Below are positions 9,293 through 61,622 of a stretch of 64,000 nt of DNA, one piece after another. The translations under genes were made by a program, and so were the position numbers. This DNA comes from Cylindrobasidium torrendii FP15055 ss-10 (taxonomy: Eukaryota; Basidiomycota; Agaricomycetes; Agaricales; Physalacriaceae), in NCBI GenBank assembly GCA_000934385.1, contig KN880549.1, forward strand, positions 1 to 64,000. Direction: 5' to 3'. The notes beneath the pieces were generated by a model, which saw only the letters and a program-made list of their open reading frames with translations, had not been told where the DNA came from and did no database searches. Numbering within the stretch: position 1 is the first letter of the stretch; every line of letters begins with the position of its first letter.

Positions 9293-10745
9293 TAGTCGTC
9301 ATCGCTAGCATACTGCAATTCATTATGAAATTGGATATTGACTTAGTACGATTGCACAAGGACATGTGTGTAGTCGTAAGTCAGTACTACCATTTCGACA
9401 CATCTTTTCCATTTTTGTGCGAGGGCCATTCAAGTAAGGTCGACTTCGTCGCGTATTTCGGCGAAGTTTGTTGAACGAATGTTCTACGATGTACAAAGGA
9501 TGGCGAGCTCAGGTCTCCGCGCCGCTAATCCTCTCACCAACGCAGCATGCGACTCCTTCTTGTCTAGCACGATTGCTTGAAGGTTCGGCATTTTGGCCTT
9601 TCCATCCTCCCCAGCGTCGCCCAACCTCCTGCCCCAAAGTTCCATAAGTGCATCCCAGCTTTGGCCCGACCAGCGCATATGGCTAACATTGGAAAACACA
9701 GAAAACATGAGTTCCAAGCCGCGGGAATGCTGCATCACTGTATCTTCCTCTTGACCACATGCAGACAGTATATGAATAGCCAACACTTGGAGCTTGGTCG
9801 GAGGCCTCAGAGCCCAGCTGATGGGAAGGAACGAGAGAAACATCGTAAAACTCCTTTTCCTGCTAGCAGTTATCATGAGGAACTTGAGGTGGGGCATGTC
9901 AAAAGCCAACAGCACAGGCGGCTTGAGGTGCGCCATAACACACAGACCCTCCAGGACTGGTAAGACAAGCGGGTTGTCCAGACGAAAATCCGTTACAGTA
10001 ATATTGTTGAGAAGCGACAGAGTGGTGAGAGTCGAAGAGGACGGGTGGAGAAATGTGTGTACGGCAAATCGTACATCCGCCAGCACAATAGATTCGGCCT
10101 TGAAGATGAGGTTCGAGGATGTAACGTCCGCGCCATAAAGGGCAAGTGCTTTCAGGGACTTGAATTTCTTTGCGGGAAGTTGTGATTCTGCGGGGAGTTT
10201 GATCATGGAGGACTCGGGTGACCTGATGTGCAGGGAACGCAGATGCGGAGCGTCGTGCGTGAAGATGGTAGTGAGCATACTCGCAGTGCAGTCATCAACC
10301 GAAATCTGTTCTGCGTTCCAAAGATGCCCAGCGATGGAGTCGTGCACAAGTATTTGAGTGGCTACGTCCGCAGGGCACAGAATGTAGAAAAGCATCGGGC
10401 GTCCTCTACAGCGTTCGATTTGCGCGGAAAGTAGAGGCAGTCGGTGAGCCTTGTGAGTTCCCCAGGCTATATATGCCCAGAGTTTCGGGAGTCCAAGTGC
10501 CACTGCTCTCCATTGGTGGCACACCTGCGAAACAGCAATGGCTGCGTGCGTGTTTTCTTCGGCTGTGGCCCTGTCTGATAGGACAAGATGGTTGGATTGA
10601 GTACTGGCAAATATCTCGGCGAGGATTTCGACTGCAAGAGAAGCAATGGTTGTAGCCATCATGGACGGATGAAAGAACTGGAAATAGCTGATCGACAGTT
10701 AGACCGGTAAACGGCCCGTAGTCCCGGCCTTCCTGCCCGAGATTC
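9284..10745. repeat. segmental duplication, copy 1
   Basis: This segment pairs with 12045-13515 in the same orientation. It starts inside the last codons of gene C (AAGTATCACTAA), runs through a shared spacer (GCTAGCATACTGCAATTCAT, then a TGCGAGGGCCATT block), and covers a whole F-box gene and part of its upstream region. Divergence is moderate by eye, with small indels. Confidence 0.75.
9484..10662 (-). CDS. F-box protein, single exon (copy 1)
   Basis: The 392-aa uninterrupted frame starts MMATTIASLAVEILAEIFAS, an F-box-like N-terminus (L..EIL.EIF). The F-box is completed by VSQVCHQWRAVALGLPKLWA, typical of agaric F-box proteins. The remainder has repeated Leu-rich strands (HLRSLHI, LKALALYGADV, LTTLSLLNNI) suggesting degenerate leucine-rich repeats. 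Such proteins usually act as substrate adaptors of SCF ubiquitin ligases; the substrate is unknown. It is the duplicate of the gene at 12265-13485. Absence of introns is unusual beside its neighbours but common in this F-box class. Confidence 0.8.
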   Translation of the reverse strand: MMATTIASLAVEILAEIFASTQSNHLVLSDRATAEENTHAAIAVSQVCHQWRAVALGLPKLWAYIAWGTHKAHRLPLLSAQIERCRGRPMLFYILCPADVATQILVHDSIAGHLWNAEQISVDDCTASMLTTIFTHDAPHLRSLHIRSPESSMIKLPAESQLPAKKFKSLKALALYGADVTSSNLIFKAESIVLADVRFAVHTFLHPSSSTLTTLSLLNNITVTDFRLDNPLVLPVLEGLCVMAHLKPPVLLAFDMPHLKFLMITASRKRSFTMFLSFLPISWALRPPTKLQVLAIHILSACGQEEDTVMQHSRGLELMFSVFSNVSHMRWSGQSWDALMELWGRRLGDAGEDGKAKMPNLQAIVLDKKESHAALVRGLAARRPELAILCTS

Positions 10746-10997
10746 CACAGCCCTTTGGTCTTTCCCTGTTGAACTCTTCCCGGAGATAGTTAAACAATCG
10801 CAGATTCATGATTGACCCTTCGTGACGCGGAAATTAGTTGAAAAGGCGGCTTTGTATGTCTTTCGTGCGTAGCAGTCCTGATGGATCGATGATGGACGGG
10901 AGTTGATCCCCCGGATCACGGATGTTTTACTCGGACATTTCCTGTTCATAACCACCACTCCGATTTCACCACAAATTTACTGGAATTGGCGGCCCAG

Positions 10998-12044: not shown

Positions 12045-13515
12045 AAGTATCACTAAAATAGTTGGCATTATGCGCTAGCATACTGCAATTCATCATGAAA
12101 TCGGATCGACTTGTTACGATGCACAAAGGCAAGAACAAGGATATGTGTAGTATGTGTCAATATCTACTTTCTTCGTAAGTGGCATCTCCACACATCGCTT
12201 CCGTTTTGGTGCGAGGGCCATTTCATGAAGAAGAGCGCATTTCGAGAATTGTGGAAGGAATGTGCTATGGTTTATAGACGATGGAGAGCTCGGGTCTTTG
12301 CCCCGCCAATACATCCACCAACGTAGCGTGCGACTCCTTCTTGTCTAGCTCGATTCCTCGAAGATTCGGCATATTGAATTTCCCGTCCTCCCCGCGTTCA
12401 CCCAGCCTCTTGCCCCAGAATTCCATAAGCGCATCCCAGGTGTGGCCCGACCAGTTCATATAGCTGATGTTGGAAAACACAGAGAGCATGAGTTCCAAGC
12501 TGCTGGAATGCTGCATTACCGTGTGTTCCTCTTGAGGACACGCGATAATTATATCCAAAATCCTGAGCTTGGTTGGAGGCTTCAAGGCCCAACTGGTGGG
12601 AAGAGACGCGAGGAAGGCCGTAAAACTGTTTTTAGAGTAGGCCCTTATCCTGAGTTGCTCGAGGCGGGGCATGTTGATTGCTAAGAGCACAGACATCTCG
12701 AGTGGCACTATGAAGCTCAGGAACTTCAGGACTGGTAAGACGAGTGGGCTGTTCGGGGAAGGATCCGTGGCAGTAACATTGATGAAGAGCACCAGAGAGG
12801 TGAGAGTCGGGGCGAACGGGTGGAGAAAGACGTGTACAGGAAATTGTAGTTCCCCCAGCCCCATAATTTCGGCCTTGCAAATGAGGTTCAAGAATGCAAT
12901 ATCTACATTAACAAGCATCAGTTTTGTCAGAGACTCAAATTTCTTCGCAGGAAGTCTTGACTCTGCGGGGAGTCTGATCATGGAGGATGCTTCGATGTGG
13001 AGGGAGCGCAGGTGCGGAGCGTCGTGCGTTAGGATAGTAGTGAGGATGCGTGTAGTACAGTTTTTGACGAATATATGTTTCGCGTTCCGAAGATGCCCAG
13101 CGATGGAATCGTGCACAAGTCCTTGGGTGGATTTGTCTTTAGGGCAGACGATGTTGAAAAGCATCGGGAGTCCTCTGCAGCGTTCAATTTGCGCGGAAAC
13201 GAGACCCAGTCGGTGGGCCTTGTGAGTCCCCCAGGCTATATTCGCCCAGAGTTTTGGGAGTCCAAGTGCCACTGCTCTCCATTGGTGGCACACCTGCGAA
13301 ACAGCAATGGCTGCGCGCGTGTTTTCTTCGGCTCTGGCCCTGTCTGATAGGACAAGACGGTTGAATTGAGTACTAGCAAATATTTCGGCGAGGATTTCAA
13401 CTGGAAGAGATGCTATGGTCGTAGCCATCATGGACAGATGAAAGAACTGGAACAGATCGAAGATGACGAAGGGTTCGCCCGGCAAACGGCCCGCAGTCCC
13501 GGCAGTCTTTGTCGA
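12045..13515. repeat. segmental duplication, copy 2
   Basis: Same-orientation partner of 9284-10745. The left edge still carries AAGTATCACTAAAATAG, a relic of the last codons of zinc-finger gene C, with no zinc-finger gene next to it. That shows the C/F-box end was copied as one block. Confidence 0.75.
12265..13485 (-). CDS. F-box protein, single exon (copy 2)
   Basis: The 406-aa frame reads MPGEPFVIFDLFQFFHLSMM before the shared MATTIASLPVEILAEIFAS F-box start. The second methionine pair at about 13430 matches copy 1, so the true start may be there (about 388 aa). The F-box continues with VSQVCHQWRAVALGLPKLWA. The rest is Leu-rich and aligns along its whole length with the copy at 9484-10662, ending RPELSIVYKP. 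The expected role is an SCF ubiquitin-ligase adaptor. The duplicate pair is intact in both copies, which suggests both may be expressed. Confidence 0.8.
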   Translation of the reverse strand: MPGEPFVIFDLFQFFHLSMMATTIASLPVEILAEIFASTQFNRLVLSDRARAEENTRAAIAVSQVCHQWRAVALGLPKLWANIAWGTHKAHRLGLVSAQIERCRGLPMLFNIVCPKDKSTQGLVHDSIAGHLRNAKHIFVKNCTTRILTTILTHDAPHLRSLHIEASSMIRLPAESRLPAKKFESLTKLMLVNVDIAFLNLICKAEIMGLGELQFPVHVFLHPFAPTLTSLVLFINVTATDPSPNSPLVLPVLKFLSFIVPLEMSVLLAINMPRLEQLRIRAYSKNSFTAFLASLPTSWALKPPTKLRILDIIIACPQEEHTVMQHSSSLELMLSVFSNISYMNWSGHTWDALMEFWGKRLGERGEDGKFNMPNLRGIELDKKESHATLVDVLAGQRPELSIVYKP

Positions 13516-14050
13516 GCTTCTAAGCTACTCATATCATTATAGCTAACTGCATTCAATGCAGGCCTCTGCTTATCATGGTACTGGGATGACTTTCATCCTA
13601 TGCTCGAGAAAGCAGACTATGCAGCTTCCCACGCATTCTCTTGCTATCCTCCTCATCAGCCTCAAGCTTTGCGTCGACGTGCCCAGAAATTTCAAATATT
13701 ATATTGCTAATTGCTTACATGGGCTACCGAGCCGCTGACTGAAATCGCGCACCTGTGCCCAGCTTGCGCCAAGGACGTAACAGATGTCCATCGCTTGGTC
13801 GACTGTTTTACGCATGCCCCCATTGCACGCCATGAGCAGTGGACGGCAAATGGGCATTGGACGTGCTGCGTGCAGAGATACACCAGGAATGCATGGACGG
13901 GATGTTCGTCAGAGAGTGTTGATCAAGCGGCCGAATCCCTGGTCTGTCAACTTGAAAAAGACAAATAAATACATCCAATTGCTTTGCACACAACATACAA
14001 ATAGCCTCAAAAAACAAGATGATAGCATATGGACATCCCTCCTTATGCAC
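13516..14050. other. intergenic, only weak frames
   Basis: No supported gene. A short plus-strand frame near 13711-13968 contains LCPACAKDVTDVHRLVDC, which could be a relic of a Cys-containing domain, but it lacks start and splice support. The right end is the 3' flank of zinc-finger gene D. Confidence 0.4.
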
Positions 14051-29124: not shown

Positions 29125-30149
29125 TCATTCATGACGGGCCCTCTTTTTGATAGCAACATTCTCGGAAGAACGTGCGCGCTTGCCTAGAATAGGGCACCTA
29201 TAATCTGGTGCATCGGTCTGAATTGCTCGGATGCGCTTGTGACGATCGGCCCTTTCTTTGCTTACTTCAGAGGCCTAAACACATATGCTAAGTAAGTGTG
29301 GCTGGAGAAAACCTCGAGCATACCTTCGCCTTAGGTCTCCATAATGCTACATATGACAACCACAGTGATTGAATCTAATGGAAAGAGCTGAGTGCAGCGA
29401 TTATGGGAGACGCCAACACAGAAAACACACCTGTCTGTCTCGTGTATCTTCCTCCTTTGCGTCCTCGAGCAAACGCTGCGCTTTTTCCAGCTCCTTCTGA
29501 CTGGCCCAGATTTGTGCCAATTGGATGGTATCTCGTAGCTTGCGCCGTACGTGTAATGTAAGACGGCACCAGTCCATCTCCTCTTCCGGATCGTCTGCGC
29601 TATCCGCAAGACGTTCAGCTCGGCGCAACCATGAATGGTCAACGCCTTCCGGCACAACCACAAATTCGACTGTAGTTTTGGGGCAACTGATCTTGGCGTT
29701 ATCGAAGAGTGCGCTAAGGTAACGCAAAACAGGTTCGACGTTGGCAGGGAGCTGCTTCGCAGCGGCCTTCCAACCATGCTCCTGCGCTACAGGCATGTAG
29801 ACGCGAATCCAGGCAATGAGAGAAATTGAGCGCGTGTGAACGGAAACAACGCCCTCTGGAGCAGTAGAGTCTTCAAGCCAGCGGCGGTAGAGGTGACATA
29901 GACCCTTTAGCGCGTGAGGTGAGTCTTGAGAATGAGCAACCCGTCAAGAACGCACCTTGAGCTCAGTGAGCCCTTCGGTTTTGCTTCTATTCATGCTTTT
30001 CTGGGACACATTCCTGTACATAGAATGCCTATTAGCAGGGCAATACCGGTGTATAGTGCTGAAACGCGCCTGACGTCGTCTTGGCCAAAATAAAGTGCCC
30101 ATGCGTCCGCGCTCGCGCTCGCCGACAAGTAGACGTTCGTCTTAGCCAT
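29125..30149 (-). CDS. U3: short member of unknown U family
   Basis: The start at 30149 gives MAKTNVYLSASASADAWALY. The first intron has a GC donor (CAG then GCGCGT) and a TACAG acceptor. Exon 2 is NVSQKSMNRSKTEGLTELK, and exon 3 GLCHLYRRWLED carries the family core VLRYLSALFDNAK, VEFVVVPEGVDH and LTLHVRRKLRD. After DTRDRQ come two short exons, IQSLWLSYVALWRPKAK and then ASEVSKERADRHKRI, ending in a basic tail (LGKRARSSENVAIKKRARHE, TGA at 29125-29127). All junctions are phase 0, so the frame is whole. It lacks the C-terminal CIGNLPFLVAAA block of U4 and U5. About 265 aa; function unknown; the basic tail suggests a nuclear location. Confidence 0.65.
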
Positions 30150-30976: not shown

Positions 30977-32712
30977 TCATCCAGAACGCGCCTTTTTCTT
31001 GGCAGCAGTTTTTTTGGCAGAGCGTTTGCGTTTGCCTAGAATAGTGTTCTTCTCAACGGTTTTCGGTGTATTCGACAGCGTCAGACGTGGCAGGGCATTG
31101 ATTGCCTGAACCACAAAAGAGTCTTTTTCGTAGCTCGACGCCTGGGGGAGCGCTCAGAATACACTATCACACATAGGAAGGTGACTGACCGTTAACGCAA
31201 AACAACTTTCTTCGGAAACAGGGGGATCGCATTTGAATAGACAGCCCCACGAGCCCACTGGTAAGCAAATGAATTTGACGGGCGAGCGCCGCGCGGCGGC
31301 AGCAGCGAGGATGGGCAGGTTTCCAATGCATGAGATACTGTGCTCTCTGAGCTGCCGGAATACAACAACGAGGCTCAACGGATCAGCGATAGGTCCTAGT
31401 GTTTGCTGAAGGAGAGAGCGCGCGATGCAGTCGGAACCAAAGCGTGCAGTGGCGCGCACGTTAGACATGTCGACTGAATCTCCTCCAAAAAGAGATACCA
31501 GTGCACTCAAGATCATAGTGGGATGCCCGGCGGTTTCCTTCCTGTAGAACCGTCAACCTCGAAACTCGATGAACGGTGTCGAACGATTACCATTCGGCGC
31601 GAACATTGGGAAAATCTGGGACTGAAATATTGCACAAGTCGGCATACAGTCTGAACCATTCCTTTTTCTTCAGTGGCTTGATTTTGAGCTCGGGAGATGT
31701 GACGGGAACGCAAACTTGCACCGCTCCTGCCTTGGGCCATGACATACGATTCATCCACGGAAGGCTGGCCTCAATTGTACGGAGCCTTTGTTCTCCGATT
31801 TCGGGATTCCCAGAGCTTCCCGTGCTTGGACCGGAATCCTGTGCATGCCCGCTAAGAAATTGCGCTAGGAAATAAACGTAGGGCTCACTTTCGCTGTAGG
31901 TGATTCTTCGGGCGACGACGCAAGTAGTGGCTGAACCTGCTGATAGAAAGTTGGTTGTTATGCGCGGTAGTACACACGGGAGGCGCACCTCTTTCCTTGA
32001 CTCGTTATCCATGTATTCCTCTGCATCCCTAAGCAAACTCTCCGCCTGTTCCAACTCTTCCGCACTGGGCCAGAACTGGGCCATGGAGACCAAACCACGC
32101 AGCTTGCGCCGTACATGTAGCGTAAGACCGCGCCAATCCACGTCCTCCTCGACATCGATTGCTCTGTCCGCTGAGCTTCGGGCGCGTCCCAGCCGTTTGT
32201 GTTCGATTCCCTGCGGTACAAGCCAGAATTCAACCGTAGTCTTGGGGCAACTGATCTTGGTGTTGTCAAAGAGCGCGCTGAGGTAGCGCAGAACTGGCTC
32301 GATGTCGGCGGGTAAATTCTTCGCAGCGGCCTTCCAACCATGCTCCTGCGCTGCTGGCATGCAGACGCGAATCCAGGTAATGAGCGCGAGTGAGCGTGTG
32401 TGGATGAAGACGGCGCCCTCTGGAGCACTGGGGTCCTCCAGCCAGACGCGGTAGAGATGGCACAGGCCCTGGAACGCGTGGGGTGAGCTTCGGGAATGCG
32501 CAACCTTTCAGTAACGCACCTTGAGCTCAGCGAGCCCCTCAACTTTGCTTCCACTTATGCTTTTCCGCGACATATTCCTGTACGAAGAATGCATATTAGC
32601 AAGATACTGTCGGTGTACAGTACTGCACGCGCCTGGCGTCGCCTTTGCCAAAATAGAGTGCCCATGCGTCCGCGGCTGCGCTCGCCGACAAGTAGATGTT
32701 CGTCGTAGCCAT
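30977..32712 (-). CDS. U4: full-length member of unknown U family
   Basis: The start at 32712 gives MATTNIYLSASAAADAWALY. Exons 1-3 are 32633-32712, 32520-32577 and 31990-32468 within one base, with intron 1 a GC-AG intron. Exon 3 holds WIRVCMPAAQEHGW, VLRYLSALFDN, VEFWLVPQGIEH and LTLHVRRKLRG. Two short linker exons (QVQPLLASSPEESPTAK, then DSGPSTGSSG...) lead to LYADLCNISVPDFPNVRAEW. An intron after the Trp precedes the C-terminal block ISCIGNLPILAAAAA...SPVKFICL...CFALTV. The final phase-0 exon ends in LGKRKRSAKKTAAKKKARSG, a clear nuclear-type basic tail. About 490 aa in a whole frame. No known domain is recognised. It is the reference copy for U1, U2, U3 and U5. Confidence 0.7.
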
Positions 32713-49737: not shown

Positions 49738-50743
49738 ATCTAAGTGATGATGGCAAGAACGGAGGTGATTAAATTGACCCCGCGATCGACACTGACTGCC
49801 GAAGTCCCGACACTTTGGACTCCCTGAATCAGCCCTGAAACACCGGGGGCAAGCTCCGGGGATGTTAAATTTAACAGCGACACGGGATGTTCATTGCGCT
49901 GTAAGTAGCGCCCTTGGAATAAATATACCTTCAAAGGTCCTTTGTTTGCGTGAAAGAGTTGCTGCAGGTTATGTAGACACAGATTTTTGAAGGGCTATGG
50001 CACAACCCTTGAATTGCGGAATCATTTCATGCTTATGTCCATGTTCTTTGTGAACGGTTTCATTGTGTCGGGAAACAAAGGACTTGGATATAGTGTGTAC
50101 AATTTTTGGTTCTTGCGGCTACCATGTATAGTCTCTATTATGGGGAAAAGAAAAAAATTCAATTTATCATTGGTACAACGACTTTAGGCTATGTATACGC
50201 CGTATGTGATTCTGGTGTAGTTGTTCAGTGGGTCACCTCAGCGGCCAGCCTAGCGCTGCTGGCTGCTGGTTGGGCAATGGGTTATATAATTTCAGAAGTA
50301 CTCCATCAGCCAGAAAATATTTTAAAGACCTCAAAACATGCACCGCCGAAAGCTGGCTGACAGAGCATCTCCTTGAGGGTGCAAGTTTTGATGTGATCGG
50401 GTGGCACAGGCCGCCACAAAGTGTCCATCTTAAGTAATTGCTAAGTTTTCTAAGGGAAACAGGTCCCTATCAGAAACGAAATATTACGGCAGTATACTAG
50501 TCCTCTGACCTACCAAAATGTCTACAACTTGGGCACTGACTGATACCTCTGAGCTCAAAGCATAAATTTCGGATGGCCCGCTTATTTATCACATTGTATA
50601 TAGATATAACAGTTTAGGCTCTCTTCTTCATACCCACTGCGGCTCACACAGTCATGCACATGTGTAATCACTTACTACATTTTGGCTGCATTTAATCTGG
50701 CAAGCCGCTCCCGTGGCGCATCACGATCGCACTCGGCATTGCG
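49738..50743. other. intergenic up to transposon left end
   Basis: Promoter side of the second long F-box gene, then AT-rich sequence without a supported gene. Its last five bases, TTGCG (50739-50743), are the left copy of the transposon target duplication. Confidence 0.55.
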
Positions 50744-50768
50744 TATGGAATGCCGGAGAGCTATGCTT
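50744..50768 (+). repeat. left terminal inverted repeat
   Basis: Twenty-five bases, identical in inverse to 61593-61617. Confidence 0.85.
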
Positions 50769-51047
50769 TGAAACCGGACGGGCTGAAACAAAATATTTTT
50801 GAAATAATTTACAAATCCTTTTAAAATTCCAGAATTGGGAATGCTATACGTTATGCTCGGTCTCCGCACGGGTCGGCGAGGTCCCAACTTCTTGCAGTGT
50901 GCAGTAGTGTGGCGCTCGCGTGCGCAGAGGCCAGTTGGTCGGTCCGAGTGAGCTAAGCTCAGTGTATAGAGCGCGATTGAGGTGCTACTACGCAGCACCA
51001 TTCCAAAGCTCTAGCTCTAACCACAGAAGCAAATTACTAACTAGTAA

Positions 51048-53099
51048 CTACCAGCCATCATCCGCCTCGCCGCCACTGGCTTCTTCATCGTCGGATATGA
51101 TGTCTTCCCCTGCAACATCCACTCCTTCGTCCTCAAATTCCGGGTTTGCTGGAGGGTTACGAAGCTGGTTTAGCTCTCCTTGGAGGGCCTCAATTTCGTC
51201 TCCCACAGGGACCGGAACTGGCTCAGTAAATCCTTCCAGAGACTCGGCAGCCGCATTCGGGATTTGCTCTAGTCTTGCAAGAATGTCTTCGTAGATGTTC
51301 CATATGTTGTTGCGCGTCACTTCTGGGCTGCCTAAGTTTTGATAGACCTTTGAGATGGTTTCGTGAAAGTCCGGAGGCACCATCTCAAAAGTAGCATGGT
51401 CAGTTGGCGCATACAGCTCTTCAGCAGCTTGAAGATACTCTGCATCTCTGTCGACCAGTACCTAGTAAGAAATAATTAGCACAAAATTTTGCTGATCAGG
51501 ATTAAAGAGGACTTTAAAGTTCTTGCAGTTATGATACTGTGGAAACTCTTCGATGTCATTTGGGCTTTTCCCCTGAGGCAGAACTTTGTGCTTTTGCCGG
51601 CGCTTTACGGTAGAGTTGACCCTTGCAGCGTAGGAATCAAGCTCCATCTGAACCCAGGGAATAAATAGCCATTTGTAGACGTTGCTAGAGGCACAAAGTC
51701 AGCAATTTGACAAGGACAAGTTGCCACGGCCTGGAAACTCACTATTGCAATGGGTCATAGCGATCGAACCGAATGCGAAGCTCGGGATGTTTCCCTGGCA
51801 TGCTCAGTATGTCCTCCACTCCCGGGGCCAATCGGCGTCGCAAACCAGACCAAGCTATTTCAGGAGGCAAATTCTTCTTCTCTGGACGCCAAAGGTGTTG
51901 CAGGGTTCCCTCTAGGCTGGGGTCCAGGCTGTGCCGTATAAAAGTGTGCCCTCTTGCTATGAAGTAAGCCTCTGAACCCAGGTCGCTCTGAGTAACTAGG
52001 CAAGTGTCTATCCAAGCGTTAACTCTGCAACTCAAAGGCAACAAAGGTCACTCACGTCCAAGCCTCTTCACAGCGTCTAAGTAATATCGAAAAATCAAGC
52101 GAGGATTCCGGTTGCCCCACCAGACACGAAGCCATATGATTCTGCCAGTGAACGGGTCAAGGCATATGTGTAAACCAAGGCCATAAATCAACCACTTGTC
52201 GTGCTGATCCAAGCACCATAGGGCGTTGCAGCCCGCAGAGTAGAACCTTCGCCGTTTGAGCTGGGATCGAACCCTCTCCTTCACTTTCTCTGGCTCAAAT
52301 TGTCGGCACCAATCCTGGATGACTCGCCTGGTGTTTTAATGAGTCCGTTTAAAGTGAAAAAAAATATAAGAAAAGGCACTCACCGACAAACATACTTTCC
52401 CTTCTCGTGCCGAAGAACACTGATAATCTCCCTATACCCGGCCTTTGGGTAATGTTGACGGAGTTCAATCATATCCTCATGGATTTCCTGAACGGCAAGG
52501 CCTAGTGCGGCAAAGAATCAGAAGCTGGTCACTGCAGCATAAACGGGCAAGACCCACCCATGCGGCGGACGGTAGGTAGCTTTAAATTGTCTGTAATCTT
52601 CCGAAATAAGCCAAATCTACAAGAAACGTTATCAGTCATAAACACCAAGGGATGGATTAAAAGTGCTCACGAAAATGCGTATTGACCAGTGTCAACTGAG
52701 GTTTCACGAACGCGCATCCAAACATCTTTCCGCGTGAGCCCATTGGTCCCCCAAAGCTCAAGCAACTTTGGCAAATATGAGTCGAGCGGAGCTAATGGCT
52801 AGGAATTAGGTTGAGAGGCAAAAGTGTGGGGAGAGACGAACGAGCACGCTTGTACTGATTGCCACCCATGGGCCCCAACGTAGCCAGACCTGCTCTCTGA
52901 GGTAGAAAAAGCTTACTGCTTTTATAGTCTCTTCACAACGCGGAATGAAGGACCGTCTCAGTGCGATCTCCGAAGCTTCAAACTTCCTTGAGAAGGGGGT
53001 GCCTTGAAGAGGCGCCCTGAAGAGCGCAGCTGCCTGACGTTCTCCAACCCTCAGGCTCCAACACCCAGCCCTTTGCAACTCATAGTCAATGCGTATTCA
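51048..53099 (-). CDS. integrase-fold (DDE) transposase
   Basis: About nine exons are read on the minus strand, ending EASGGEADDGW and TAG at 51048-51050. The 5' start is not resolved: the first exon near 53078 reads LQRAGCWSLRVGERQ without a clear ATG, so an upstream exon is likely. The exon order gives GLATLGPMGGNQYKRA, PLAPLDSYLPKLLELWG and LRQHYPKAGYREIISVLRH (helix-turn-helix-like). The catalytic region has ALWCLDQHDKWLIYGLGLHI (first Asp), ICLDPFTGRIIWLRVWW, VTQSDLGSEAYFIA (second Asp) and LPPEIAWSGLRRR (candidate Glu). This is the integrase core found in many agaric genomes. It should cut and join the transposon ends in the nucleus. Being next to the left TIR supports ownership by the element. 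Confidence 0.75.
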
Positions 53100-53533
53100 A
53101 TGAGCCACTCATTCACATCTTCCTACATTAGTGCGGGAATTGATCGCGCCCTGATCATTTCGGAGTGAAAATCACGGGACCCTGGCAAATCTTGTTTTCA
53201 TTTGCAGCAAACGCAAGGAAATTGCCAGTTAGGCTGCAGCTTTTACGACTCAGCCTTCAGATTTCTTGACAAGGGATGAAAGGGGCTGGCGTGGAATCTC
53301 CAAACCTCGAGGTCCTCTGCTGCGGACCGCTGTTTTGCACCGTTTGAGGGCATCGCCCGCCTTCACTTTTCTTCATGGCTGATGCGGAACGCGCGGAGTG
53401 AAAAGGTTTAAAACTGTCGCAATTGTTGCTTTCAGATTCGCCGACCCCTCTCTGCTCTTTGCACGTCGTCTGCTCTCTCCGCCTCTCTATTCTCATTCCT
53501 ACCTTCTCGTCCCCATCTGTGCTCCTCTCTGCC

Positions 53534-56500
53534 ATGTCGTTTCAAATTGCGTCTTCTTCAATCACTCCAACCATGATGGCCTGCCAATCCACTGGTTGTG
53601 GGAATATCATCGCTGCGAACGGAAACTACTTTTGCGTCAGGGATTTGTCCAAAGGGAGAGAAAAGATGGTCTGCGAGGATTGTGTGGAGAATAAGTATAG
53701 GGCAAGGGTTCGACAGCATGCTAGTGAGTGTTCACAGCTTTCCCCAGTATTTGTCGCCTTACCTTTGTTTCTAGCCCTTACTAAAACCGCCCAACTTATG
53801 ACTGCACGAAGAGGACTTCCTCAGTTATCCCAGCAGCAGTCTGAGGCTCCGTCTTCTGGGCACTCGCTTCAAGCTCAGTCTCGATTTGGGAGCCAGATTT
53901 CCCTTCCAGCGCCGCCACTACCTCTCCAGCATCGGCAAGTTAGCCAGCCGGTCAGAAATCTCTTACCGGATGCTCAGTCCATTGCGGTTATGTCGAACAG
54001 AGCTCATCGATTTGGTGAGGGATTGATTGTTCATCGACTTGGATTAGAATTAAGTATTGACTCCTTGTAAGGTTCTTCCAATCCCGCTGGTGCCAGGGTG
54101 GTATCAATGCCAACGCCTAACTCTCAGATGCCCACTGGCCCCAGTGTGAATATATTTTCGCCTTCTTTGAGGCCGGCGTCGTCTTCACTCATGGCAGCGC
54201 CCCCGGTGCCCTCAATTCCCGGCTATACTCGCAACCACATCCACTACGAGCAGGAAGCCCGTCGATATCAGGCAATGGCCTACGCTCCAAGCGGTCCCCA
54301 GGTGGCCATCACCTTCTCTGTGGCCTATCCCGGCGATGAGGACGGTCCCGCAGTGGAGACTTGGCATGTGAGCCTCCTTTCTTTGTCCTTTCGTCATCTC
54401 CTCTTGCCGTTTTACTCATTCCATCTCCAGGAGCTCACTTCAAGGCTGCCTGTATACTCTGCCAGTAAATCGGCCGCTGAAATTATCAAGGATGCGCACT
54501 CCATGCTTCAGAGCATGACGTCGGAGCGCCTTGTCGACCAGCACGGCTCTGGAGCTTTGTCTTTCGTCTGGGATGTCAGTCGAGTTGGAGTGTTCGATGT
54601 CACCGCCCTTACAACCACGAAGTTGAAGAGTGCAAATGCCGGTATTGACTTATCTGCCCTGATTCGAGGAAATTGGGCGACGCAAGAGATGAAGGACTGC
54701 TACCTGGTTTCGGCTTACCCAGGAAAGCCTGCCAGTGGAAAGAGGAAAGCGCAGGTCTCCGTCGGCGAGGGAGTCGTTAAACTCCTGCATAAGGCCTTTG
54801 ACATACGCATGTTTGTCAAAGCTGACGAATTTGACCGCTTCACTGAGCACTGCAAATTGGAGCGGATGGCGGAGAGGAGGAAGAAGAAGGAGGAAGCGGC
54901 TCTGAGAAAAAAGGCGGACGATGAGCTTTTGGAAGCTCAACTTCATGGACCGGTTGACTTTGTGAGTTTCTTTTGAACGCTCCTTTTGCATCTTTCTTCT
55001 ATCGAGGCCTAACTATGAATTTAGATCCACAACTATGAGGACTTGTTTGTGAGTTGCCCAGTCTTTGTGCTATCCAAATTTTGTAACTAATTTAACGGTC
55101 AGCCTGTTGCGAATGAAGTCTTTGAGGAAGACGGGGATTTTCCGGATCTTCCAGACGCCACTGCACTCAGCAAGCGCCCTCTCAGCGTGAGTTGCTTCTT
55201 CTGATCTTTTGAATGGCAGGCCCTAATTGGCATGCCCACTTGCAGCCTTCTGCTCAGTCCCCGCCTCGTCCTCGTAAGCGGCAGGTTGCGTCTTTCGCTG
55301 CTATGGCTTCCGCTCCCTCCTTGCCCGCCGCCCCTACTCCTTCGCTCATTCAAGCTCAGGCTCCACGAGGACCTGCTGACTTAGATTCCATGAAAATCGC
55401 TCCATCCTCTTCGCTGAACTCCCGCTCTGGGGTGGCTTCCAGCTCGAGGTCAGTTGTCACTCCGACATTGATGAGAGAGACTGTCAGGGCGGCGGGACAA
55501 GGTTCCGTAGCATCTAAGCTCAGTGAGTCCTTACGGTTTTACTGAAGCGCAATGTTCCAAGTTCCTAACTCGTGCGCTTTCTTTTTAACAGATACTCTTA
55601 AGCAGTTTCGAGGCCACTTAGTGCCAATCACTCCTGGTTTATTCGAGAAGGAGATGATAGAGGGTCGCGGAGCCACCTTCGATGCACTTGGAGCCCTAAA
55701 CCTTCGAAGCCAGGCCACCCTCATTACCGACTCAGACTCTGACTCCGAGCTGGGTTCAGGCCAGTTCAAGTCTGCGCACCCGGGAACGCTGCACTTGGAC
55801 GCACAGAACCCCCCAGCTGCTCTAGCTCATTTTCAGGGCAAAGAGATATGCGTTAAGAAGTTCTGGGGCTCTCGCACTGGGCCGGCCGGCAGCAGGTGAG
55901 GGAATGCGCTCATTTCTCTATTCTCGTGGCGGACTGACTTAGCGCATAGAACCCGCGTGCGTCTTCCAGGCGAGAAGGAAATGGACTTGGCTCGAGTAGA
56001 GGGAAAGGTGAACTGGTGGGCCACAATGCTAGTGCGTCTGATGGCGGACACCGCTGCCTCCCTGCAGTCCAACCCTAGTGAGTGTTTCGGCGACTCCTCA
56101 TTTTGGAGGCTAAGAGCTCCGAATTAGACCACCCACCGGCGCCTGCGCCCATCCCAGAGCTTGAGCACGTTCGAACGGCCATTTTTCTCACTCTGAAGGA
56201 GCCCAATCCATTGCGCCCTCACGACATTGTCTACGATCGCGCCTTCATGATTGAGGACATCATTCCCATGGATTCTCCCTCTTCGTTTGTGAAGCTCGTT
56301 CACAACGGAGCCGCCGTCCCTTTACTTGCCAAGAATCACCCGGATTATCCTAAGGCGGTCTATCTCTGTGCGGGACAGCACCTTATTTTTGAGAAGTCTT
56401 GTGGAACGCTTTTCCTATCCGACTTCCAAGGCTGTGGAAAGTATCTGACCGACTGCCAAGTGATGAGCGACCCGTAAGAGCCCTTAACTTTCCCATTTCC

Positions 56501-56696
56501 TTCTTCTCATTTAGCTCTTAGGTCTCTGTCGCCATCGCAAGACAACCAAGGCATGTTCGGAGATGGTAATGTGGCCCAAGCCTTTGCGGCTTTTCGAAGT
56601 CAGCATGTGTGTGGCTCATGGTGCACTTGGTTTGGGTTAAATCGCCTTGTTAACCCTAGCACAACACTCGAGGAGGGAGAACTGCGAGACTACTAG
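53534..56696 (+). CDS. alpha-kinase (atypical protein kinase) with N-terminal Cys-rich motif
   Basis: A multi-exon plus-strand gene starting MSFQIASSSITPTMM at 53534. Exon 1 has a Cys cluster (CQSTGCGNII...YFC...MVCEDC). A Ser/Pro/Gln-rich linker follows, then ARRYQAMAYAPSGPQVAI and TSRLPVYSASKSAAEIIKD, and several short exons. The catalytic part shows alpha-kinase hallmarks: a Lys strand (GKEICVKKFWGS), TRVRLPGEKEMDLARVEGK, EKSCGTLFLSDFQGCGKYLT followed by DCQV (like the DLQG...LTDPQ of the family), the GDGN loop, and a zinc-binding HVCGSWC near the end. TAG is at 56694-56696. Alpha-kinases (eEF2K/MHCK family) phosphorylate Ser/Thr; the substrate here is unknown. DCQV in place of DPQ is notable. 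Internal splice sites were not all checked for frame. Confidence 0.7.
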
Positions 56697-58194
56697 GGCT
56701 CTGAGCTACAAACCGGCTCTGTTGCTTCGCTCTTCCATTCTAATTCTTTAAGTCCTCTTCCCTTGTTATTATAAATTAGTCAACTGCTTCTTTATTTTAG
56801 AAATCTTTGGTAGTAGCAGATGCTTATTTTTGAAGTTCAATTGCAGCCTCTTTCTGAGCTTAATTAATCAGAGTGGCGCTGCGGCGCAGTGCGCCTGGCG
56901 CAACAAACACGTGACCTGACGCGTATGATGCGACATCCACGTGTCATCAACAATCGGGATGATCGGCACAGCCACACGTCGGGATATAAGGGGGCCCGCC
57001 TTTCTCCTTTGTCCCTTTGCGACCAGCCTCAGATTCCGTCACACGGGTTCCCACACCTGACCGACGGGTTTTTCTGAGGCCAGTCGCCCGGGTCGCGCTT
57101 TGATGCTCTGAGGCTAGCAGCCGGTCGCATGGGTTCCCCACCTAACAGACCGCGCCTAGTTGTCAGTGTCTGCAGGCGCAGACCGTGGCCTCTCTCTCCC
57201 TCCCCGCTCCACCTCTGCTTTGCAGCTCTAGTGCATAGGTTGATTTCTTTTCGACGCGCGCATTAAGCTGCGTCCCCCTCTCTCGTGACCGTCTGCTAAC
57301 CTACTGCAAACCTGGGCCGGCAAAGGGATCACGATCGGGCTCGGCTTTGTCTCCTGCCTCCATCACCGGCATAGCTCTGCACCCCTGCAGCTGGCGTCGA
57401 CTACTCCAGGCCCGACTGCTGCGCGCGACTTTGCAACAGCTCTGCGACTTGACTGCTTGGATGGCGGCTAGTCAACTAGTACGGCAGCTAGACTAGCGAC
57501 TAGGAAGCTATCCGCCAACGCGGCGCATAGCACCAGGCCATGCTCCAAGCATTGCGCTTCTTCATCGAAGAGCACCGTCGTCTCCTTTTCTGACCCGAGG
57601 ACCGCCGAATATTGGGAGGGAGTGCTATGGTTTGCGACCTGTAGAGTCGCACTGACAAGTGAGTTTGTACCTCTCTGCGCATTGATGCACTGCTAGCATC
57701 GTAGCAGGAATGACCATCGCTTGCTCGAACAGCCGGTTCAAGAAGATGTGCCGCCGCCTCGAGTCTGCTTTGCTCCGGACTTAGCCGCTGCAGAGCCAAA
57801 CCCCACCCACCTATTGGCTTCAGAACTTCCGTCTCGGCATTTCCTCACTCCCCATTGCCTCCCCATTAGCTTTACTTTCACCCGCATGCGCAGCTCACAT
57901 TACGAATCTACTATCTTCACTCACCGCTGCCTATCTACTTAGCTATTCTCGTCGTTTACTTCTTTCGCAATTGAAGCGCCTTTCTCCTCCCCGATTGGCC
58001 CAGTCAGTCAGCAGACGAGTGCAGCCGGGGGCCCGGCCTAGCGCTGAGAATGAGAAAGAAGCCCGGCCCGGCTCTCATGTGGAAATTGGGCACCCTGGCT
58101 CGCTTCTGATAGCAAGTGACTTCCATCTTTTGCTTTCCTCCTCCATCTTTCCCCACTGTCATTACTCTCCACTTTCCTCAACCCCTCAGACTTA
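56697..58194. other. 1.5-kb non-coding stretch inside the transposon
   Basis: No supported gene. It holds a promoter-like cluster at 56908-56990 and an intron-like signature near 57658-57706 (GTGAGTTTG ... ATCGTAG), so it may be a long spliced 5' leader of the oxygenase gene at 58195. Pyrimidine-rich sequence dominates 57800-58190. Confidence 0.45.
56908..56990 (+). promoter_or_regulatory. promoter-like cluster: two CACGTG, one ACGCGT, TATA-like box
   Basis: CACGTG occurs at 56908-56913 and 56938-56943, with ACGCGT at 56919-56924 between them and TATAAG at 56985-56990. The spacing is that of a compact upstream element plus core promoter for transcription to the right. Confidence 0.4.
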
Positions 58195-61100
58195 ATGGCT
58201 TTCAACACCTCTGGTAGAAGGTTGCTTCGCTCCGTTGTACAGAAGTTAGGCCTGGAGTGAGTGCGCTCAAAAGCAATTTTCACTCCCACTGGCACCTCAT
58301 CTGATAAAATCTAGAATGCCAGCCTGGCAGGAACACAATGGCGAGAACAGGACCATAGAAGAAGTCAACATCGACAAGCTGGATTACGCCGATGTGGTCC
58401 TGACGCGGGCTCAACGCATTAGCAAGCAAGCTGCCAGCATTTCCGGAGCTCGAGGGCGGAATGTTGACCCTGATCTCGAGTCTGATGTCGAAGACACGCC
58501 CGCGCTGAACAAGGACTACACCGGAGATCGCCTGTCGTATGGAGAGGCCCGAGCTCCTAAGAAGCTTTGCGAAGAGTAAGCTGGGAGCGCCAGTCTCTTC
58601 TTTGGCCGCTAATCTAACTAATCATCAGATTTTTTTTGGGCGCGAGATAGTAAGTCTTGTGGCTTGAAGAGCGTTGCGTGACAGGCTCTGACTTTGCAGC
58701 CCTCCATTTGACGAATCCGATGAGTCGCCTCCCAGCGACTACTTAAGGATGAAGGCCCCCGCTCCCTGCACTGATCAAGGGCACCTCAAGCATCAGGGAT
58801 TTGGCTCTCTGAAGCCCGACGATGTCTTTTGGCGGCAGCGACTTCATGAGCGAGGCAAGAAGCTCAATCCCGGCGACTGGAGCAATGAACCTTGCGACCT
58901 CACTCCAGTTGAGCTCGCTGAGCAGTTCATTGAGAGGGACAACGCTGATGCTAGACGGCGAGACTCAGCGAAGCGAGTGCCGGAGGACGATGGATCTGAC
59001 GGCGGCGCCTCTGCCCTCGACAGCAACACTCATCGCCACAAGCGCAGGCGCCTAATGCCTCGCGCAGAGGGAGCTCCACATCTCAGCAACCGTCAGCGTC
59101 AGAGGTTGGACCGGGACCTTGAGCAAAAAGCCCGGCGCAAGGTGCATAATCAGAGAAATCGTGCGCGCAATCAGGCCAAGAACATGCGTGAGGCACCTCA
59201 GGAAGTCATCTTCGCAAAGCACATAGTGAGTTGATTCTTTGAAGTTTGTGCGCTCAAGTTGAGCTGCTGCAGGTGGCTCCAGGACCCGCTCTCAAGCCTA
59301 TCGCATCAACTCCCTCCTCCCCTCCTTCCTCCCCAACCTTTTTGCCTCGGTTGAGCCCCTCAAGCTCTCTCCAAGAATCCTCTCCGCCCGCTGATGCGCC
59401 CTCTCCGCCTGCCGACACATCCTCTCCACCCGCCGACACATCCTCTCCGCCCGCCGACACATCCTCTCCGCCTACCCGCGCATCCTCTCCGCCTACCCGC
59501 GCATCCTCTCCGCCTACCCGCACATCCTCTCCCCCTCCTTCCTCCCGCGCATCCTCTCCGCCCGCCGACTCTGCTCTCTCTCCGCCTGCCGAGGCATCCT
59601 CCCCGCATGAAAGATCTAATGCTCCATCGCCGGTTCCCTCATCCTCTGGCTGGAACAGCATCCTTGATGAGGAAGAGAGCGACGACAAAGGCGAAGAGGA
59701 CTTTGCGGAAATAGGGCTAGATCAAGCCAAAGACGACGAGCAGGTTGACTGGGAAGCGATTGAGGCACTCGGCCTTGACGCTGCCTCAGTTTACGGCGGC
59801 GGAATGCCCAATCCCGACTCCCTTCCCACTCCGGCCTCAGCTCAAAACAACAGCCCGCGTGCAGAGTTCAAACTGCGCACTACGTCAACGGGATGGACGG
59901 GGGGGCGAGCAGCTTCATCTGAGGTGGTTGCTCTTTTATGGGCATGGACGCACTGGGCGTTGGGCCCCATTCTGAGGCTTTTCACCAAAGTCCAGTTCCG
60001 CGAGGGGTGAGAGCGCCGTCTTTCCAGGTCATTGTTCTGATACTTTGCTAGAAATTCAACAACTTGGACGGTGATCAAGGACCGCTGGGGTAGAAACATT
60101 GCAGTTCGCAGTCACCTCATGCACTTCATCTCCGGCTTCACTACTGACGAGGATGGAGAAGAATTGACTAAGAATCCTGCACGACCGTCGCCCTTCATGC
60201 AACAGACCATCAACGAGGTCATAGAATTTGTTCGTATAACTTCAAAGATAGAGTCCGGGTTTAACGTTCGAGGATTTCACTGGTTCCATATCAGCGGGTG
60301 GGACCGCCAGATCAAAGGAGTGCGAGGCCGCCGCCTTCCTGCTAGTTGAATGGCTTCTAACGAGCAGCGTTTTAGATTCCGGACCTTCGGGCTTGGTGCA
60401 AGCTCAACACTGGACCTCTGAAGTGGCTCTTTCGAGAAGAATCACCCTGGCGTCGCCTCAAGTAAGCTGCTCATCCCATTCCTCGTTTGCCGTTGACCTT
60501 GGTTTCTAGTGGAGTTGCAACTTTGATGGTGCAGGCTTTCTTCCCGGGCGTCTTTCGGCGCTACATGAGGTGCATTGATTACATGGCTCGCAAGCACGGC
60601 ATTGCTCCCTTCTACGGCGTCTTCTGGCAATTCTGCATCAACTGGAGCGAGTCGAGACTGTTGGTAGACTGCTGGCCACATGTCGACGCCGCAAACTTGG
60701 CCATCGGTGTCTGCGTCATTTACATATTTGGTGAGCCAATTCTTCCTTACGCTTGCTTTTCATCTGACCTTCCTTTACAGGGCATTTCAACAGCAACGAA
60801 GTGTGCTGGCTTGTAATCTGGGAGGCCAACATAATCATTGAGCTTCCCGCTGGCATTTTCCTAGCATACCCCTCTTCCTTGTTCTACCACTTCAACGTCA
60901 ACAAGCAGGGTTTGAAGCATCTAACTCTTACTTTCTTGTTTTCTCACAAACCAACAGATGTTCGCGCAGATGTTAAGCCAACGCCTTACGTCCCTCGTTT
61001 GGTCGTGGGGCGCAAAGGCCAAAAGCCTACTCCCTCAAACACTGTTCCGCTCACGAAGCGCAACGCAGAGCCGGATGCGTGGGAGAAAGGAAATGTCCGT

Positions 61101-61241
61101 GGGTCTGCCGTGTGGTTCTGTCAGGGATCTATGTACCAGCCGTCTGAACTCGGAGTTCCAACGATGAGAGCAGCGCGCGCTCAAGGGATGAACGTCAATG
61201 TTGATTTGGACGATTTAATGGAAAGAGGAGAGTTATTTTAA
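58195..61241 (+). CDS. Tet/JBP-like 2-oxoglutarate/Fe(II) oxygenase-domain protein
   Basis: The start at 58195 gives MAFNTSGRRLLRSVVQKLGL, then an intron and EMPAWQEHNGENRTIEE. The N-terminal half is charged and basic (KRRRLMPRAEG, RQRLDRDLEQKARRKVHNQR), followed by a Ser/Pro minisatellite region and an acidic patch. The C-terminal part has FFPGVFRRYMRCIDYMARKH, LLVDCWPHVDAANLAIGVCV (HxD motif) and IYIFGHFNSNEVCWLVIWEA. IIIELPAGIFLAYPSSLFYH (distal His) and RGSAVWFCQGSMYQ follow. This is the pattern of the agaric Tet-like oxygenase family, whose TET/JBP relatives oxidise 5-methylcytosine. Activity here is inference and the call rests on motif order only. TAA is at 61239-61241. It shares the transposon with the alpha-kinase. 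Confidence 0.55.
59390..59600 (+). repeat. 21-bp coding minisatellite (SPPADTS/SPPTRAS)
   Basis: About nine tandem units of 21 bp encode SPPADTS-like repeats, drifting to SPPTRAS, SPPTRTS and back. Frame is kept. It lies in the linker of the oxygenase gene and gives long false antisense frames. Confidence 0.8.
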
Positions 61242-61353
61242 ACATAGAACTCGCTGGTTTATGTATTTTGTATCTGTACTTAGTCTGAATCATGCCCGTT
61301 ACCATCCTGGAATTATCACCAGCCCAGCTGCCCGCCGTGAGCGCGTCTGAGAA

Positions 61354-61408
61354 TGCTTACCAAGAAGTGTCGCGATTCGAGTCGAATCGCGACACTTCTT
61401 GGTAAGCA
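61354..61408. repeat. perfect palindrome, 27-bp arms, 1-nt centre
   Basis: 61354-61380 and 61382-61408 are exact reverse complements around a single G at 61381; the arm begins TGCTTACCAAGAAGTGTCGC. It lies 113 bp after the oxygenase stop and 185 bp inside the right TIR. It could be a cruciform, an RNA hairpin at the mRNA 3' end or a transposase site. Confidence 0.9.
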
Positions 61409-61436
61409 AGATGCCTGCCGCTTCTGCTTTAGGTAG

Positions 61437-61543
61437 ATGTGGCGCACGAGGGACTTGCTGCGCCACACGGCTTCGATGTTTGCAAGGCTTAGGTCCATTG
61501 CTTAAGTCCATTGCTTATGTCCATGTGGCTACCTTAAGTCCAC
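61437..61543. repeat. subterminal hairpin and TTANGTCCA direct repeats
   Basis: TGTGGCGCA and TGCGCCACA form a 9-bp inverted repeat at about 61437-61468. Then TTAGGTCCATTGC (61489-61501), TTAAGTCCATTGC (61502-61514) and TTATGTCCATGTG (61515-61527) are direct 13-bp units, with a fourth TTAAGTCCA at 61534. Such subterminal arrays often bind transposase. Confidence 0.6.
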
Positions 61544-61592
61544 GTTTCCTCTCCCCAAAAGGAAGTCCGTCGGACCTGTTCCCGCAGTTTCG

Positions 61593-61617
61593 AAGCATAG
61601 CTCTCCGGCATTCCATA
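61593..61617 (-). repeat. right terminal inverted repeat
   Basis: Twenty-five bases, exact inverse of 50744-50768, followed by the TTGCG target duplication at 61618-61622. Confidence 0.85.
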
Positions 61618-61622
61618 TTGCG

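Follow-up and report, generated by a model that had tools for sequence, protein, structure and literature searches.

How do an alpha-kinase gene and an oxygenase gene come to lie beside a transposase gene, all within one pair of terminal inverted repeats (TIRs)? The question is raised by a stretch of 64,000 nucleotides (the window) from contig KN880549.1, here called C119, of the wood-rotting mushroom Cylindrobasidium torrendii FP15055 ss-10. An original prediction, made from the letters alone, had described this arrangement as a transposon with an integrase-like transposase, an alpha-kinase passenger and a Tet-like oxygenase. We consider it likely that the locus is a complete-looking IS3EU-like transposon in which the kinase and TET-like genes are residents, and that the TET-like protein most likely lifts silencing by DNA methylation through oxidation of 5-methylcytosine (5mC).

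Structure of the element

The repeats, the duplicated target and the three genes in some 10.87 kb were all found as the original prediction had placed them. The element spans window positions 50744-61617 (10,874 bp). Its TIR, TATGGAATGCCGGAGAGCTATGCTT, lies at 50744-50768 (+) and 61593-61617 (-) and is perfect over 25 bp, with 30/31 bp matching when extended; about 2e-6 perfect 25-bp inverted pairs would be expected by chance in a random 64 kb. TTGCG is duplicated at both flanks. Three spliced genes without internal stops encode proteins of 482, 864, and 863 amino acids (aa). Gene models here and in the second element described below were spliced by hand with GT-AG introns, the models of the second element also including two GC-AG introns. 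To judge from these features, the element is apparently a complete, autonomous-looking cut-and-paste transposon that may still be active today. Its features are as follows, with the basis of each in parentheses.

50739..50743, no strand: left target-site duplication TTGCG (flank match)
50744..50774, + strand: left TIR with TATGG end, 25 bp perfect, 30/31 bp (inverted-repeat match)
51048..52869, - strand: integrase-type DDE transposase, 8 exons, 482 aa (spliced model, Pfam, conservation)
53534..56696, + strand: alpha-kinase, 11 exons, 864 aa (spliced model, Pfam, motifs)
56926..56989, + strand: putative promoter, 64 bp, ending in a TATA-like stretch as judged by eye (83% match to the second element)
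58195..61241, + strand: predicted TET-like 2-oxoglutarate (2OG)-Fe(II) dioxygenase, 10 exons, 863 aa (spliced model, predicted fold, motifs)
61356..61406, no strand: 51-bp palindrome, perfect except for the central base (self-comparison, match to the second element)
61587..61617, - strand: right TIR with CCATA end (inverted-repeat match)
61618..61622, no strand: right target-site duplication TTGCG (flank match)

Related elements in the genome

The TIR recurs at 8 sites in the 29.3-Mb genome (≤3 mismatches), and a reversed control pattern gave 0. The ends are thus not confined to one copy, and the other complete element, at C301:449-10962, does not exclude the kinase and oxygenase genes; neither of the two outcomes that would have refuted the original prediction was thus seen. 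This relative carries an integrase (-), a kinase (+) and an oxygenase (+), with order and strands as in the window, between TIRs of 31 bp (29/31 matching); comparison of its flanks gave no target duplication. The two elements are about 66 to 67% identical in DNA over the longer alignable stretches. Their proteins are 57% (integrase), 34% (kinase), 68% (TET-like core) and 38% (TET-like N terminus) identical, and all six coding regions are open. Because substitutions are concentrated at third codon positions (differences at positions 1/2/3 of 0.31/0.23/0.64, 0.52/0.41/0.70, and 0.34/0.27/0.62 for the three genes), the comparison suggests that the kinase and oxygenase, like the transposase, have been under purifying selection. 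The same three genes are kept in this long-diverged copy; therefore, they probably work together, perhaps against host silencing.

Shorter relatives were also detected. A relic on C379 retains an integrase and a partial kinase, with 88% DNA identity to the C301 element, and is interrupted by the contig end and by sequence common to C470. At C107:68205-71623, a 3.4-kb segment with the same TIR (one mismatch) is bounded on both sides by GCTAG, and its ends are 84 to 91% like those of the window element; a search for element coding within it found none. By its sequence, this segment is a nonautonomous relative. A second TIR family has ends on C418, C227, and C259. The flanks of the C259/C227 pair share 6 bp and those of the C418/C418 pair share 7 bp, and two crossed pairings share none. 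Duplication lengths are thus 5 bp in the window, 5 bp on C107, 6 bp for C259/C227, 7 bp for C418/C418, and none on C301. The interior of this second family was not found, since no further contig matches the integrase N terminus.

C418 itself, a contig of 15.5 kb, has an element end at each of its ends, and both flanks share GCCACAC. It looks as if one element lay in a circular or tandem 14-kb segment, or as if the contig were a product of alternative transposition or an assembly error. Ribosomal DNA or another known RNA locus was rejected as an identity for the contig, since no Rfam family matched it at gathering thresholds.

Transposase and alpha-kinase

The transposase is of the integrase type, as had been predicted, rather than KDZ. 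The C301 copy scored 29.5 bits against PF24764 (rva_4), above the cutoff of 26, and the 36 matches to the KDZ profile PF18758, on 21 contigs, include none on C119 or C301. Residues D149, D208, and E249, conserved at 98 to 100% in 121 to 122 sequences (120 listed relatives and our two models), form the DDE triad by inference; other acidic residues are equally conserved. With the C301 integrase as query, 345 relatives were retrieved. Among the 120 matches listed, all bear fungal names except a few without a name, and we take them to be mostly agaricomycete. The NCBI model of the window transposase (CYLTODRAFT_411728) has 478 aa, versus 482 aa here.

The second gene was confirmed as an alpha-kinase by the profile search that the original prediction had proposed, with PF02816 scores of 36.6 and 46.3 bits for the window and C301 copies (cutoff, 21.3). 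Both copies contain the motifs SDFQG, LTD, FGDGN, and HxCx3C, which are visible in an alignment of the C301 kinase with eEF2 kinase (E = 0.013) and which we take to have catalytic and zinc-binding roles. The window kinase also has a Cys-rich stretch near its N terminus. With the C-terminal region of the kinase as query, no homologue was recovered at E ≤ 0.001, and the query itself was missed as well. Across the genome, the family search matched only C119 and C301, and tblastn added C379; the genome counts for alpha-kinase, KDZ, Plavaka and tnp2 are lower bounds. In the window, on C301, and in the C379 relic, the kinase lies on the strand opposite the transposase.

These observations do not bear out the proposal that the kinase is an added passenger. 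It is common to C301 and the C379 relic, and in the published account of IS3EU the TET-containing (TET+) families all have one (PMC12730594). In this lineage of elements the alpha-kinase appears to belong to the regular gene set. Regulating transposition through a kinase linked to the transposase would be out of the ordinary.

The third protein and its predicted fold

The 863-aa oxygenase-like protein is letter-for-letter identical to NCBI CYLTODRAFT_444578. Its model, compared with the PDB by Foldseek, has CcTet or NgTET1 as its best 16 matches (E = 3.5e-7 to 2.2e-5; next, 3.7e-3), and the best 6 for the model of a relative are likewise NgTET1 and CcTet. VIA Z scores for CcTet were 15.8 and 14.5 for the two models, and entries for CcTet, NgTET1, and TET2 took ranks 1 to 11 both times. 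In these models the core is a double-stranded beta-helix nearest to TET structures.

Sequence motifs agree with this placement. The TET-like C-terminal core starts at about residue 487, with key residues H710, D712, N715, H763, R817, and F823. The HxD...H pattern noticed in the original prediction corresponds to an iron triad, H710-V-D712 ... H763, with the surrounding fold backed by structure prediction and not by Pfam; these three residues are invariant in 9/9 aligned cores. Ten of 12 sequences (9/11 database proteins and the C301 protein) retain HxDxxN, whose Asn falls at the 5mC-contact position of TET2, and all 12 (11/11 and C301) retain the distal His. R817, the candidate counterpart of the 2OG-binding Arg385 of CcTet, is present in 7/9 rows, the others having one Gln and one His (in a row gapped next to this position). 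Taken together, the predicted fold and the HxD...H and HxDxxN motifs support a TET-like 2OG-Fe(II) dioxygenase as the third protein of the element.

Profile searches were silent. No Pfam family matched the protein above its cutoff, and the sub-cutoff matches were to unrelated families (best, 14.4 of 27 bits). PF12851 (Tet_JBP) matched neither the window protein, the C301 protein, nor 6 relatives; it also had no match in the whole genome, but the control set was equally silent, so that absence is not established. Profiles of the TET-like family searched against the PDB returned no TET, only one nucleolar protein at E = 0.99, and a second search was empty up to E = 10. Because this family is invisible to Pfam, such genes may be undercounted in mushroom genomes.

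Relatives of the oxygenase beside other transposases

The original prediction had held that one shared mobile carrier would explain the expansion of all three protein families. This was not upheld: the alpha-kinase matches found (lower bounds) are confined to this element type, and the oxygenase family has matches on 12 contigs, 4 of them near KDZ. Besides C119 and C301, 4/10 oxygenase contigs (C394, C29, C416, and C465) have a KDZ transposase within 5 kb (2.6 to 3.2 kb). The chance estimate for these neighbors, 5e-7, assumes even spacing, makes the association look too strong because transposons cluster, and includes all 4 weakly matching contigs (C416, C465, C453, and C210; E = 4e-8 to 8e-5). 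The C29 copy (within C29:80500-88500), with PHVD and YHFN motifs, shares its strand with the KDZ gene and is upstream of it. Farther off, the C278 relative is 14 kb from a KDZ transposase, the C369 relative (within C369:9000-18000) is about 5 kb from a sub-cutoff tnp2 match, and a Plavaka match lies 7 kb from the C210 relative and another about 10 kb from the C470 relative. The KDZ, tnp2, and Plavaka searches list no transposase near the C345 and C453 relatives, and only weak, chance-like inverted repeats surround the C369 gene (25 of 30 listed).

Relatives occur beside KDZ and possibly tnp2 transposases; therefore, the oxygenase gene is not bound to integrase elements. With relatives next to different transposases in one genome, the gene lends itself to testing whether transposons share a defense against DNA methylation.

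Proposed function and alternative explanations

The preferred reading can be set out as a sequence of steps. The divergently transcribed DDE transposase would recognize the TATGG..CCATA ends and insert the element with a duplication of 5 to 7 bp. The host would lay 5mC on the element; the TET-like enzyme would oxidize or remove it, and silencing by methylation would thereby be lifted. The probable target of the alpha-kinase is either the transposase or a host factor of chromatin or translation. The idea ventured in the original prediction, that the element governs its own methylation, remains a reasonable inference because 4 contigs of this genome have matches to C5-DNA methyltransferase domains.

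Several observations weigh against this reading. On the side of the enzyme, our searches found no sequence-level link to any TET. The mean predicted local distance difference test (pLDDT) scores of the two models are low (45.6 and 52.2), as are the Foldseek template modeling (TM) scores of the TET matches (0.17 to 0.29 by query and 0.35 to 0.51 by target). At the position of Q825, known TETs carry Arg or His; Gln takes the place of R817 both in P0003 and in the C29 copy next to KDZ; and two database relatives (P0009 and P0010) lack the HxD stretch as annotated. On the side of the element, the window integrase scored 24.3 bits against rva_4, below the cutoff of 26, and synonymous change between the window and C301 copies is saturated, hence a dN/dS ratio (nonsynonymous to synonymous substitution) is incalculable. 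IS3EU membership is likely on the strength of the ends, the gene set, and the DDE core. The gene order here is transposase-kinase-TET, versus transposase-TET-kinase in rust IS3EU (PMC12730594), which suggests a separate capture of the TET-like gene. Duplications of 5, 5, 6, and 7 bp, and none on C301, likewise differ from the 6 bp of rust IS3EU (PMC12730594).

The points about the enzyme leave some room for a different activity. The protein could be another 2OG oxygenase of nucleic acid or protein, AlkB/FTO-like or prolyl-hydroxylase-like, acting on N6-methyladenine (6mA), RNA, or a chromatin protein instead of 5mC. AlkB-type structures also appear among the matches of the relative's model, at E of about 1e-4; the leading ranks held by TET entries and the Asn at the 5mC-contact position speak for TET, and we regard this alternative as unlikely. 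A very unlikely one is that the TET-like gene is part of another transposon (KDZ or tnp2) nested within an integrase-kinase element. The KDZ genes beside the relatives on C394, C29, C416, and C465 (with weak oxygenase matches on C416 and C465) and the sub-cutoff tnp2 match near the C369 relative are what such nesting would lead one to expect. In C301, however, this gene is found at the corresponding place and on the corresponding strand, with 68% core identity. Moreover, the KDZ, Plavaka, and tnp2 family searches (lower bounds, as noted) match neither C119 nor C301, and self-comparison of each element failed to reveal a convincing further pair of ends enclosing the gene, although elements lacking TIRs, Kyakuja among them, would escape such a search.

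Least credible of all is that two solo ends happened to enclose a kinase gene and an oxygenase gene of the host. Among the three proteins the kinase shows the lowest conservation (34% identity), as might be expected of a bystander. The repetition of gene set, order, and orientation on C301 already contradicts chance capture unless that contig is an assembly chimera, C379 keeps the kinase with the integrase as far as the contig reaches, and the alpha-kinase matches in this genome, again as lower bounds, are confined to these elements. An IS3EU-like transposon with a resident kinase and TET-like gene thus remains our preferred explanation.

Other features of the element and the window

The 64-bp stretch at 56926..56989 is a putative promoter of the TET-like gene. 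From its conserved TATA-like stretch to the TET-like start codon (56926-58194), about 1.2 kb holds no clear gene, and C301 is arranged similarly. Near the right end, the palindrome at 61356-61406 has a DNA fold z of -11.4 and sits in a 61-bp stretch 97% identical to its C301 counterpart, amid far more diverged DNA, at about 260 bp (window) and 300 bp (C301) from the right ends. Three two-armed copies were found in the genome (window 61356-61406, C301:10661-10711, and C296:11745-11795); a candidate fourth, on C43, has a single arm with 2 mismatches and is no better than one control match. The palindrome is possibly a small inserted hairpin or, alternatively, a subterminal site with a function. 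Two more long palindromes flank it near the right end of C301 (C301:10563-10633 and 10745-10800), while self-comparison of the window element gives only the one common to C301.

Elsewhere in the window, two pairs of long minus-strand open reading frames have similar starts (first 60 residues), at 9487-10698 and 12268-13524 and at 29404-29943 and 31590-32507, which suggests local gene duplications. The first pair may resemble F-box proteins.

Comparison with known systems

The closest published counterparts are the TET+ IS3EU families of rusts (Pucciniales), which have TAYGG..CCRTA ends and 6-bp duplications, with a TET/JBP gene between an alpha-kinase and an oppositely oriented transposase, the kinase being present in all TET+ families (PMC12730594, Kojima 2025). 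The element described here resembles them in its ends, a TIR of about 30 bp, a kinase opposite the transposase, and a TET/JBP-like gene inside (PMC12730594). The TATGG..CCATA ends of the window element, of C301 and C107, and of the second TIR family (C418, C227, and C259) fit that consensus. The TIR length is borderline, at 30/31 bp in the window and 29/31 bp in C301 compared with more than 30 bp in the rust families (PMC12730594). Here the host is an agaric instead of a rust, and the TET-like protein lacks both the AG hallmarks (Gly/Ser and Asp) and the PE hallmark (HxE) (PMC12730594). IS3EU-1_TuIn of Tuber indicum is a nonrust IS3EU that also has a TET-like gene, but its PE-type TET has HxE (PMC12730594), whereas HxD and never HxE was found in 9/9 aligned cores here. 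The Agaricomycotina section of the same account names TET+ Kyakuja, Zisupton, EnSpm, Plavaka, and Helitron2, without IS3EU (PMC12730594).

Kyakuja/KDZ elements with AG-type TETs, such as CcTet of Coprinopsis cinerea, share the TET fold and recall the KDZ-adjacent relatives in this genome; they differ in having a KDZ instead of an integrase-type transposase (PMC11040006). CcTet has no sequence match to our protein, and its Gly331 and Asp337 are replaced by Asn and Cys (PMC11040006), a substitution seen in 9/9 cores, with the positions assigned by spacing from HxD. With IS3EU/GingerRoot in general, the element shares an integrase-like DDE transposase, TA..TA ends, and a duplication near 6 bp; a kinase, present here, is absent from the main text of that report (PMC10045372).

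A broader reading goes further, and we advance it only tentatively: the oxygenases may form a Pfam-dark fourth TET-like lineage, set apart from AG and PE, with a pocket of the conventional 5mC type (HxDxxN), that serves as a swappable antisilencing gene across IS3EU-like, KDZ, and possibly tnp2 elements of one mushroom genome, with the alpha-kinase as a core gene of fungal IS3EU. If the last point is true, the rust alpha-kinase family, described as highly expanded (PMC4469406), could owe its expansions to transposon copies. Literature searches joining alpha-kinase, transposon, integrase, and basidiomycete found no paper, and a TET+ IS3EU from an agaric may already have been published elsewhere. 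The kind of element is known; what sets this one apart is the agaric host, to which TET-carrying IS3EU-like elements are now extended, the gene order, and a TET-like type without AG or PE hallmarks.
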